Source: Verrucomicrobiales bacterium (GTDB taxonomy: Bacteria; Verrucomicrobiota; Verrucomicrobiia; Verrucomicrobiales; DEV007). From it: 64,000 bases of DNA. The position numbers and the translations under genes are program-made. The notes beneath the pieces were generated by a model. That model ran no database searches. It was not told the DNA's origin and saw only the letters and a list, made by a program, of their open reading frames with translations. Shown here piece by piece: positions 49,588-52,017 of the stretch; position 1 is the first letter of the stretch; each line of letters opens with the position of its first letter. The stretch is taken from contig PAAG01000013.1 in NCBI GenBank assembly GCA_002698785.1, forward strand, positions 62,001-126,000, given 5' to 3'.

Positions 49588-50109
49588 ATGAACCATCCTT
49601 TCATCGTCATCATGGGAGTCTCCGGCTGCGGGAAGACGACCATCGCCAGCTCACTTGCCGAAAAACTCGGTGGTCGCTATCTCGAAGGCGATTCCTTTCA
49701 TCCTCCAGAGAACAAGGAAAAGATGGGAGCAGGCATTCCGCTCACCGACGAAGATCGGTGGCCCTGGTTCGACGAACTTCGTTCTGCCGCATCAGAAGCG
49801 ATCAATGATGGCAAAACAGCCGTCCTCTCCTGTTCCGCGCTAAAACAGGTCTATCGCGATTACCTCTTCCAAGGATTCGATGAACCCCGCCTCGTCTACC
49901 TCGAAGGTTCTTTCGATCTCATCAAATCGAGAATGGATGCCAGGAATCACGAATACATGACGTCCACCTTGCTCAAGAGTCAGTTCGATACCCTCGAAGA
50001 GCCACAGGCCGAAGCAAATTGTCTCGCCGTTTCCATCGAACTTTCCCCAGAGGAAATTCTGGAACAAATCGAGAGCTGGCTTTCAGCTGCCGAAGTATCC
50101 AATGGGTAA
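49588..50109 (+). CDS. gntK: Gluconokinase (GntK/IdnK type)
   Basis: The 173-residue P-loop kinase has Walker A GVSGCGKTT, LEGDSFHPPENKEKMGAGIPLTDEDRW, which is the gluconate-kinase signature, and CSALKQVYRDYL. It phosphorylates gluconate to 6-phosphogluconate, feeding the pentose phosphate or Entner-Doudoroff route. Length and motifs are usual. It overlaps the following glycosyltransferase gene by eight bases. Confidence 0.92.
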   Translation: MNHPFIVIMGVSGCGKTTIASSLAEKLGGRYLEGDSFHPPENKEKMGAGIPLTDEDRWPWFDELRSAASEAINDGKTAVLSCSALKQVYRDYLFQGFDEPRLVYLEGSFDLIKSRMDARNHEYMTSTLLKSQFDTLEEPQAEANCLAVSIELSPEEILEQIESWLSAAEVSNG

Positions 50110-51028
50110 GGTGCTTTTCATCCGCGGAGGTGCAGTGGGCGATTTCATCCTCACACTTCCCGCCATCAAATTGATGCGGGACTGCCTCCCTGAGAACGAA
50201 ATCGAAATTCTCGGCTACCCCTCGATTACCGAACTCGCAACCACAACAGGGCTCGCCGATCGCACACGATCCATCGAAGACGCCCGCCTCGCGACCTTCT
50301 TCGCACCAGGAGCCAAACTCGACGAGGAATGGTGCGACTACTTCTCCAGCTTTGACGTCGTCGTAAGTTACCTCTACGACCCGGATGGCTACTTTTCGGG
50401 AAACCTCGAAAAAGCCGGAGTGAAAACCCTCCTTCGAGGCATCTTCCGTCCCGAGGAATCGGAACCATTTGTCTCAGCCTCCCGCCAGTTGGCTCGACCA
50501 CTTGAGACCCTGGCACTGTTTCTCGAAGATCCAGCACCAGCCCTCGACTACGAGAAAACCGAAAACACGTTTCCTGGCAATCCAGTCATCGCCCTTCACC
50601 CCGGTAGTGGTAGCCCCTCCAAAAACTGGTCATTCGAATCCTGGGCCAATGTCATCAAGGGCATCTCAGAAAAACACCACGAAGCTCATTTCCTCATCAC
50701 TGCCGGCGAAGCTGAACTCGAACGCATCGAACAGTTCCATGCTCTCATAGATCCACTCGGCATTTCCTGGGAATCCGTTTCTGGCAAATCACTCACTGAC
50801 CTAGCCTCGCTCTATCGCTCCATAGATTTCTATCTGGGACACGATAGTGGCATCTCACACCTTGCTGCGAGTGCCGGGAGTAAAGGACTTCTCCTCTTTG
50901 GTCCTACCAATCCTTCCATATGGGCTCCAGAGACGAATAGAATGGAGATCATTGCTTCTCCTTCCAAGTCGCTGGGAGACATCTCAGTGGCTCAAGTTCT
51001 CGATCGAATTGAGTTATCCACATCGTAG
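50102..51028 (+). CDS. Glycosyltransferase family 9 (heptosyltransferase-like)
   Basis: The 308-residue GT-B protein starts KVLFIRGGAVGDFILTLPAI, the GT9 N-terminal signature, and has the nucleotide-sugar region HPGSGSPSKNW and GHDSGISHLAAS followed by LLLFGPTNPSIW. GT9 enzymes add heptose or related sugars to lipopolysaccharide core. The ATG overlaps gntK by eight bases. The last codons contain an exact DnaA-box sequence (51014-51022). Confidence 0.87.
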   Translation: MGKVLFIRGGAVGDFILTLPAIKLMRDCLPENEIEILGYPSITELATTTGLADRTRSIEDARLATFFAPGAKLDEEWCDYFSSFDVVVSYLYDPDGYFSGNLEKAGVKTLLRGIFRPEESEPFVSASRQLARPLETLALFLEDPAPALDYEKTENTFPGNPVIALHPGSGSPSKNWSFESWANVIKGISEKHHEAHFLITAGEAELERIEQFHALIDPLGISWESVSGKSLTDLASLYRSIDFYLGHDSGISHLAASAGSKGLLLFGPTNPSIWAPETNRMEIIASPSKSLGDISVAQVLDRIELSTS

Positions 51029-51237
51029 AAGAATAAAATAAATTTAGAGGGAAATGGATTATCTTATTATAGATGTGAATAACTGTGAGATACGTTCACA
51101 ACTCACTGAAAAAGAGCATTTCATCGATCCTTTTTAAATGTGAGAAAGCTCCTGAAAGTATTGAGAGCAACTGACCTTCGCTGTGAGTAACCCGAAGTTG
51201 TTCAAAACTTTTCCCAGTTCTTCCGAGGTTATTCACA
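51014..51237. other. DnaA-box cluster in AT-rich intergenic region, candidate oriC
   Basis: Exact matches to TTATNCACA occur at 51014-51022 (TTATCCACA, plus), 51074-51082 (TGTGAATAA, i.e. minus-strand TTATTCACA) and 51229-51237 (TTATTCACA, plus). A one-mismatch copy, TGTGAGTAA, is at 51182-51190. The spacer begins with an AT-rich tract (51029-51075), which could serve as an unwinding element. The two outer boxes overlap the 3' ends of the convergent GT9 and rnc genes. Three exact boxes in about 224 bases is far above chance. Whether it is the origin, a DnaA-titration site or another control region is inference. Confidence 0.6.
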
Positions 51238-51927
51238 CACTTTTTCATCCTTCCAGGACTCGTTTTCAAGGGCATTGGCAGCAGCTTGGGTTTCCGCTTC
51301 CTTTTTGCTTTTTCCAGTGCCGCGACCAAGAATCGTTCCTTCCCAGGTAACCTCGGCTACGAAAGATTTGCTGTGGTCGGGACCTTCCTGAGAAACGATG
51401 GAATACGAGGGGCTGGTCGGAGCGATAGATTGGAGCTGCTCCTGCAGTTCACCCTTTGGGTTATTCTCTTCAGGCTCATCGACGATCTGTTCGATGAATT
51501 CGGAAAAGTTGTTTAGCAGAAACTCGCGAGCCTTTCCGATACCACCATCGAGATAGATGGCACCTGCCAGGGCTTCAATGGCATCAGCAAGATTGGAAGG
51601 TCGCTTGCGACCCCCGCTCGCCGATTCCCCTTTGCCCAGGAGAAGATACTCACCCAGATCGATCTTGTGGGCGTAGCGGCAGAGAGCACTCCGTGATACA
51701 AGCCGACTTCTGAGCTTAGTCAGTCTCCCTTCGCTGAAAGAGGGAAAAAGACGAAACAACTCATCTGTCAGGATCAACTGGATCACCGCATCGCCAAGAT
51801 ACTCTAACCGCTGGTTGTCGAAATGAGGCCTCTTCGACTCATAAGCAAGACTGGGATGAGTGAGTGCCTCGGCTAGTAGGAGCGAGTTAGTAAATTTGTA
51901 TCCTATTCGTTCCTCAATAGATTCCAT
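51229..51927 (-). CDS. rnc: Ribonuclease III
   Basis: The ATG at 51927 gives 232 residues. The endonuclease domain has the RNase III signature QRLEYLGDAVIQLILTDEL with catalytic acidic residues, and LADAIEALAGAIYLDGG. The dsRBD is FVAEVTWEGTILGRGTGKSKKEAETQAAANALE. It processes rRNA precursors and structured RNAs. The frame continues upstream through tRNA-His and has no family resemblance there, so the longer start is rejected. The TAA stop overlaps the rightmost DnaA box. Confidence 0.95.
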   Translation of the reverse strand: MESIEERIGYKFTNSLLLAEALTHPSLAYESKRPHFDNQRLEYLGDAVIQLILTDELFRLFPSFSEGRLTKLRSRLVSRSALCRYAHKIDLGEYLLLGKGESASGGRKRPSNLADAIEALAGAIYLDGGIGKAREFLLNNFSEFIEQIVDEPEENNPKGELQEQLQSIAPTSPSYSIVSQEGPDHSKSFVAEVTWEGTILGRGTGKSKKEAETQAAANALENESWKDEKVCE

Positions 51928-51941
51928 CGACGGTTCAATGA

Positions 51942-52017
51942 TGGGGTGGCTGACGGGATTTGAACCCGCGACAACCGGAACCACAAACCGGGGCTCTACC
52001 CCTGAGCTACAGCCACC
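51942..52017 (-). tRNA. tRNA-His (GTG)
   Basis: The minus strand reads GGTGGCTG, with the extra 5' G (G-1) characteristic of tRNA-His at 52017, a D-arm GTAGCTCAGGGGTAGAGC, anticodon loop TTGTGGT with anticodon GTG, T-arm GGTTCAAATCC, acceptor CAGCCAC, C73 opposite G-1, and encoded CCA. It lies 14 bases upstream of the rnc ATG on the same strand, so the two may share a transcript. Confidence 0.95.

Follow-up and report, generated by a model that had tools for sequence, protein, structure and literature searches.

The closest described counterparts of the element reported here are the BUS of B. subtilis oriC, composed of DnaA boxes 6 and 7 and the DnaA-trios, and the origins of E. coli, H. pylori and C. 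difficile. In the BUS model, as set out in the passages cited, DnaA bound at a box delivers an oligomer to the triplets of a single strand and pulls the two strands apart (PMC8287927, PMC10721633, PMC6669920). The origin models in the literature consulted open from one side. Two papers from 2023 call the loading of two helicases unclear in the passages cited (PMC10201434, PMC10721633), and for B. subtilis DnaD has been proposed to serve the second strand (PMC10201434). In H. pylori and C. difficile, two clusters of DnaA boxes make up a bipartite origin, with the trio in one of them (PMC8235120, PMC7561715); the C. difficile trio, 5'-CTACTACTA, is placed in oriC2 alone in the part of that work cited here (PMC7561715). 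The two oppositely oriented box arrays of E. coli are described as one cluster beside the DUE (PMC8235120). A published search for BUS elements, by the account cited, retained for each origin its single best candidate (PMC8287927), and a two-sided case would therefore probably not stand out there. In the literature that we searched (open-licence papers, mostly by listing), neither a study of a verrucomicrobial oriC nor a two-sided BUS was recognised.

Here, we analysed a window of 64 kb (the whole stretch of DNA under study, G000:C16:62001-126000) from a 7.0-Mb draft assembly of 60 contigs, the named relatives of which are Verrucomicrobiota, for the most part metagenome assemblies. A sequence-only reading of the window had pointed to a candidate origin in the gap between a GT9 glycosyltransferase gene and rnc, citing exact DnaA boxes at 51014 (+), 51074 (-) and 51229 (+) and a one-mismatch site at 51182. 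A motif search returned all four (Table 1) and no other exact match to TTATNCACA in the window. The outer boxes do overlap the ends of the two convergent genes, as had been remarked: box 1 lies on the end of the GT9 gene and the last box on that of rnc. A tRNA-His gene (gtg, 51942-52016) lies immediately upstream of rnc and shares its strand.

Table 1 Features of the GT9/rnc gap (window coordinates) and of the one-sided unit in genome G027
Feature	Position	Strand	Remarks
GT9 glycosyltransferase gene	50102..51028	+	Pfam PF01075, E 3.6e-18; end overlaps box 1
DnaA box 1, TTATCCACA	51014..51022	+	exact; CACA end points right into AT-rich core
AT-rich core, proposed DNA unwinding element	51023..51073		51 bp between facing boxes; 76% AT
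Box-1-side triplet array, 3'-CAT CTT CTT ATT-5'	51025..51036	-	strand predicted for DnaA filament from box 1
Box-2-side triplet array, 3'-GAT ATT ATT CTA-5'	51061..51072	+	strand predicted for DnaA filament from box 2
DnaA box 2, TTATTCACA	51074..51082	-	exact; CACA end points left into core; 60 bp start-to-start from box 1
Weak DnaA box, TTACTCACA	51182..51190	-	one mismatch; member of array towards rnc
DnaA box, TTATTCACA	51229..51237	+	exact; overlaps rnc end
rnc (ribonuclease III)	51229..51927	-	Pfam PF14622, PF00636, PF00035; convergent with GT9 gene
One-sided box and CTT-triplet unit, two tandem copies ~0.5 kb apart	G027:C1:497126-497866 (L093 9126-9866)		skew minimum

The number of exact boxes was in itself mildly unusual, with three found against 0.81 expected from dinucleotide shuffles of the window and at least three present anywhere in 5 of 100 shuffles; one-mismatch matches were near expectation (28 versus 23.4). 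Their clustering, rather than their number, is the strong part of the signal. Given the 71 exact sites of the 7.0-Mb genome, 0.0002 clusters of three within 224 bp would be expected genome-wide by a simple Poisson estimate, so that the gap carries a box cluster well above chance, as a bacterial oriC does. The earlier estimate of less than one exact site per 30 kb proved conservative, the expected frequency in the window being about 1 per 79 kb, and its description of the clustering as strongly non-random was borne out.

The DNA between the facing boxes is among the most easily melted in the window. By nearest-neighbour stability the core ranks 14th of 63,950 stretches of 51 bp (the least stable starts at 51032), and the AT content of the window peaks in the gap at all three scales taken, the richest stretches of 50, 100 and 200 bp starting at 51033, 51014 and 51014, in agreement with the AT-rich tract noted before. 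The box cluster is thus joined by the adjacent, easily melted element typical of oriC.

Triplets were read inward from each box on the presumed filament strand, in frames that we picked ourselves, across the cores of 18 genomes of the same genus. On the box-1 side, the first triplet was GAT in seven and GAG in six, the second NAT in 14 and the third CTT in 15; on the box-2 side, the first was GAT in 10, and the second and the third were each CTT or ATT in 17. The motif AGAAG was seen on the box strand no more than 18 nt from box 1 in 14 of the 18 genomes (0.2 in shuffled cores) and no more than 18 nt from box 2 in 11 (0.25 in shuffled cores). This pattern suggests that the core consists of two opening units that face each other, each inward-pointing box being followed by triplets of the NAT-CTT-CTT type. 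Arm-to-arm similarity beyond the boxes was modest genome by genome (p ≤ 0.05 in 9 of 18; p = 0.03 in the window). When a profile built from the 18 cores was matched to the reverse strand, four loci scored at E < 0.01 (L188, L184, L020 and L032) and nine at E < 0.1, from which it follows that the element resembles its own mirror image; the reverse-strand match of the window itself had an E of 1.2. This mirror-image design of the core is an addition to the sequence-only reading.

Several features are shared with the BUS of B. subtilis: a box lies 1–2 nt from repeated triplets, the triplets read away from the box on the presumed filament strand, AT-rich DNA follows beyond them, and the first triplet is frequently 3'-GAT-5', more so beside box 2 than beside box 1. 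The two elements differ in that here two units face each other on opposite strands around one shared core, each unit has one box where B. subtilis has a tandem pair, the later triplets are mostly CTT or ATT rather than GAT, and the element does not lie beside dnaA. They differ further in that no protein of the DnaD/DnaB-type family PF07261 was found in any of the 11 genomes of the order searched (0/11), with B. subtilis as the positive control.

The spacing of 1–2 nt between box and first triplet, in analyst-chosen frames, falls on both sides within the 16 bp of the BUS definition. The accompanying published rule, a run of three or more NAN triplets inside 16 bp (PMC8287927), fails in the window, where the longest runs are one (box 1) and two (box 2). 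Of the 18 genomes, 15 show such a run beside box 1, seven beside box 2 and six beside both, and G000 (the genome of the window) and G009 show none; most of these runs begin 9–16 nt out, in the AT core. Shuffled cores show one in 9.8 of 18, and in cores as AT-rich as these the rule therefore says little. Because it fails in the window and does not discriminate, we describe the element as BUS-like or trio-like rather than as a BUS, and a reading of it as canonical GAT trios throughout was dropped on the same grounds. A second candidate, TAG on the box strand as the trio, was also discarded, since the polarity of the C. difficile trio, together with that known from E. coli, places DnaA on the opposite strand.

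In E. coli, the CACA end of box R1 faces the unwinding element, and oriC is not next to dnaA, as here, whereas all boxes lie on one side of the unwinding element, unlike here. As in the gap, the T-rich strand of the E. coli unwinding element lies next to that box (PMC13220808). The two-part origins of H. pylori and C. difficile are described as having the same components (DnaA boxes, trio and unwinding element; PMC8235120, PMC7561715), and differ in that both units here lie within 69 bp.

Conservation was assessed at rnc, which we sought in 36 genomes; it was matched in 34, and 30 loci were fetched. Of 23 genomes from the same genus, two had no rnc (G002, G006) and in two the gap was cut off (G018, G019), leaving 19 assessable. 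All 19 carry facing boxes 59–61 bp apart around an AT-rich core in the same GT9/rnc gap, with a box of 0–1 mismatch at the box-1 place in each. A script that required a plus-strand box followed 59–61 bp on by a minus-strand box, with at most one mismatch each, found 18 of them; the nineteenth, G010, has a run of N in its sequence and boxes 60 bp apart. The AT fraction between the facing boxes ranged from 0.67 to 0.81 in the 18. At the same-genus loci with the box-pair pattern (n = 18), rnc was present in 17 and GT9 in 18. In relatives, additional boxes are again found between the core and rnc, though not at fixed places; by manual count, 11 of 19 gaps have a plus-strand box of no more than one mismatch lying 40 bp or less from the rnc end. 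The conservation of the gap that the sequence-only reading had proposed to check was thus found, with the boxes kept within the genus and an altered form in other families.

Beyond the genus, the strict pair was present downstream of rnc at 14 of 79 assessable named verrucomicrobial loci (an 80th was too short) and absent from the other 65. The 14 loci, which in part represent the same genus again (L179 is a contig of G007), include records labelled Chthoniobacter, Chthoniobacteraceae, Spartobacteria and Verrucomicrobiaceae. Control sequence from the same loci, away from the gap, contained no strict pair in 214,719 bp, and box density downstream of rnc was nine times that of the control (1.14 versus 0.127 per 520 bp). 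In family f4, three genomes (G028, G035 and G032) have facing one-mismatch boxes 62 bp apart and G025 has none such; the gaps of this family carry boxes such as TTATGCCCA. When the profile of the 18 cores was searched against 2.53 Mb of sequence, all matches at E < 0.01 fell in rnc-linked gaps, including a partial one 0.44 kb from rnc in the f3 genome G024, save a second copy in G007. The two 69-bp copies in G007 (G007:C58:252356-252424 and 256493-256561, L082) are 4.1 kb apart; the second is close to the end of a contig, and no further rnc accompanies it. The stretch of identity measures exactly 127 bp (51+69+7), which is the largest word that assemblers usually employ, and for this reason the second copy is probably an assembly artefact.

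Of 288 genomes of the order, 47 contain the pattern TTCACN{52,54}GTGAATAAC, against nine for the same pattern backwards (manual count). The 47 include 18 of 33 same-genus genomes; others of the genus, G000 among them, have variant boxes and so escape the pattern. Outside the genus, the matches in G150, G163, G223 and G130 show, as judged by eye, the same inner AGAAG/CTTCTT-like motifs, and those in the remaining 25 genomes look like coding sequence or chance, also by eye. In G223, G163 and G130 the design is kept next to genes other than rnc, presumably ribD in G163 and G223 and rplU and tsaE in G130, going by the look of their translations; G163 and G223, both of family f2, thereby show the two-sided form recurring in a different gene context. 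Judged from these alignments and patterns, the element is conserved as DNA in relatives, including other families and other gene contexts, and appears to retain its design while the neighbouring genes change, moving with the origin.

We then compared the position of the element with local GC-skew minima in 13 relatives, computed over fetched stretches of about 40–160 kb, not whole chromosomes. The minimum lay within 0.31 kb of the element in four (G223, 27 bp; G130, 183 bp; G008, 271 bp; G012, 307 bp) and within 1–4 kb in another four (G028, about 1.3 kb; G163, 2.1 kb, near a contig end; G035, about 3.2 kb; G021, 3.6 kb). Two of the four closest, G223 and G130, carry the element beside genes other than rnc. 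In the other five relatives, the minimum fell at contig ends (G004, G010), 22.7 kb away (G015) or 8 kb away (G025, which has no box pair), or no clear flip was seen in the stretches taken before contig ends (G007). A skew minimum is thus at or near the site in 8 of 13 relatives. On the contig of the window itself, skew weakens at the gap, where about -0.11 gives way to about 0, and is negative again 12 kb on, with the minimum at the contig end. This break without a clean flip is the main weakness of the case for oriC; the skew check suggested beforehand, made here on fetched stretches, came out in favour of the site in relatives.

Skew also weighed on two other places considered for the origin. 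That dnaA is not adjacent to the gap was correct: it lies on another contig (C41:134557), followed by a frame that we take by eye to be dnaN. An origin at dnaA was dropped, as skew there is uniformly positive over 40 kb, and the dnaA region of G012 is likewise uniform. All 16 DnaA proteins of the order that we examined, including that at G000:C41:134557 (L009), carry the signature DHGTV in domain IV, where E. coli DnaA has DHTTV, and box preference may have shifted in this order. The second place emerged from the genome scan for TTATNCACA that had been proposed, which found two clusters of at least three boxes within 300 bp besides the gap. The denser, with four exact TTATTCACA boxes in 296 bp of AT-rich DNA (G000:C50:10444-10739, L006 10444-10739), lies between an AI-2E-type transporter gene and obgE and at first was the better candidate. 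It was abandoned on skew, which is uniform across both flanks in G008, G004 and G000; in G035, skew near obgE is below zero to the left and to the right, and the 39-kb stretch has its lowest point 18 kb off, near a contig end, and in G012 the left flank alone was taken.

With a conserved array, an easily melted core and skew minima at or near the element in relatives, the gap is very probably the chromosomal oriC of this verrucomicrobial lineage, some 0.2 kb of DNA flanked by the GT9 gene and rnc, with dnaA located elsewhere, much as the sequence-only reading had suggested. The overall best explanation, to which we assign a probability of about 0.88, is an oriC in which DnaA would open the DNA inward from the facing boxes. 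That both arms are used for opening is a proposition we slightly favour.

The alternative that fares best is an ordinary one-sided oriC, in which a single facing box with its triplets opens the DNA, in the manner of E. coli and B. subtilis, and the other has an accessory or pausing role. To our knowledge, the well-studied origins are all one-sided. Box 2 has the slightly more canonical arm, with GAT as first triplet in 10 rather than 7 of 18 genomes, and in the f4 genomes G028, G035 and G032 box 1 is kept while its triplets are not clearly recognisable. A single arm is also what is seen in the complete, one-contig genome G027 (family f6). Sampled round the chromosome, its skew stays below zero from 1 to 497 kb, is positive up to 2.13 Mb and for the most part negative beyond, with the exception of a sample at 2.98 Mb (+0.03); the minimum of the stretch 328–500 kb, at 497,358, coincides with two tandem units of the box-2 type, away from rnc (Table 1). 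The origin of G027 therefore looks one-sided and is not at rnc. Against a single working arm in the genus of the window stand the fixed spacing of box 1 in 19 of 19 genomes, the AGAAG motif beside box 1 in 14 of 18, and the return of the two-sided form next to other genes in G163 and G223. Weighing these, we give one-sided opening odds somewhat below even.

A second alternative is that the gap serves as a DnaA titration or reactivation site (datA/DARS-like) or as a DnaA-controlled regulatory region, with the origin elsewhere. The genus has two other conserved DnaA-box clusters that are probably of such a kind. The obgE cluster, a candidate DnaA-controlled obgE promoter or titration site, recurs as at least two exact boxes within 700 bp upstream of obgE in 16 of 17 same-genus genomes extracted (none in G016). 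The other (G000:C16:145135-145426, L001 19135-19426) consists of three boxes inside a DUF2851 gene (Pfam), 32 kb from the origin gap. Across 18 same-genus loci, that gene and its surroundings hold at least two exact boxes in 12, one in three (outside the gene in L320) and none in three. In 16 aligned DUF2851 genes, TTA encodes the leucine at 14 of 14 KLFT sites and 28 of all 767 leucine codons, 14 of them there; this retention of a rare, box-preserving codon is the reason why the boxes appear to be selected as DNA within the gene, and they are possibly datA/DARS-like. Both clusters look regulatory. The distance of the gap from dnaA and the lack of a clean skew flip on its own contig would also fit a regulatory site. 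Against such a role, which calls for a place away from the origin, skew minima fall at or near the gap in 8 of 13 relatives, and none was seen at the obgE cluster in the genomes with both flanks covered. Facing boxes that enclose triplets and an AT-rich core also resemble an origin, and no better origin candidate was found among the genomes examined. We regard a titration or regulatory site as improbable, and oriC remains the preferred reading of the gap.

The mirror symmetry could also be the stem of a two-way transcription terminator or RNA hairpin between the convergent GT9 and rnc genes, perhaps an RNase III site in the transcript of rnc itself. An 88-nt stretch does fold well as minus-strand RNA (z = -5.9; plus strand, z = -1.7), but the arms show no covariation: 86.6% of cells were paired versus 86.7% after shuffling, and one of 17 pairs had changed on both sides. 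The arms are therefore not maintained as a hairpin, and each seems to be conserved as a protein-binding sequence. The terminator scan was empty in the core, and a weak terminator hit (50944-50961) and a weak promoter-like hit (51043-51070) were both at chance level; Rfam returned the tRNA alone. In G223 and G130, moreover, reading frames place the element outside convergent gene pairs. An RNA hairpin or terminator is thus rejected as very improbable. Finally, a chance cluster in AT-rich intergenic filler, for which the tendency of the motif to occur in AT-rich DNA, the near-expected count of one-mismatch sites and the 5 of 100 shuffles with three exact sites might speak, is refuted by the 0.0002 clusters expected and by conservation across 19 genomes and into other families, and has a negligible probability.

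Returning to an oriC with facing boxes, the near-mirror-image build of the core means that the DNA may open from both sides at once. In the mechanism that we propose, DnaA would bind box 1 and box 2, and from each box an oligomer would run inward over the adjoining triplets, the one from box 1 along the lower strand and the one from box 2 along the upper. Jointly, the two oligomers would pull the 51-bp AT-rich core apart from its two ends, and the complex would be nucleated or stabilised by the weaker boxes on the rnc side. The outcome would be one DnaA-coated strand for each of two replicative helicases. In this order, DciA was found in 9 of 11 genomes and not in G000 and G014, and so no lineage-wide statement on the helicase loader can be made. 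As a generalisation, we put forward tentatively, with the balance leaning against it, that verrucomicrobial origins are two-sided, with oligomers from facing boxes advancing towards each other, one on each strand, over CTT-type triplets particular to the lineage, so that one strand is made ready for each helicase. Symmetric loading of two helicases is, as a separate step, less likely than not.

If an opening unit does stand at each end of one AT-rich core, the two-helicase question would become testable arm by arm, and the element would represent a symmetric solution to placing the two helicases that two-way replication needs, in a lineage whose searched genomes gave no match to a DnaD-type protein. 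The position proposed here places the origin for a group rich in uncultured genomes. It also bears on how their genomes are used: in the three one-contig genomes examined (G027, G030 and G034) the record starts at dnaA, and in G027 the skew flip lies 497 kb from that start, a discrepancy that matters for estimates of growth rate from read depth.
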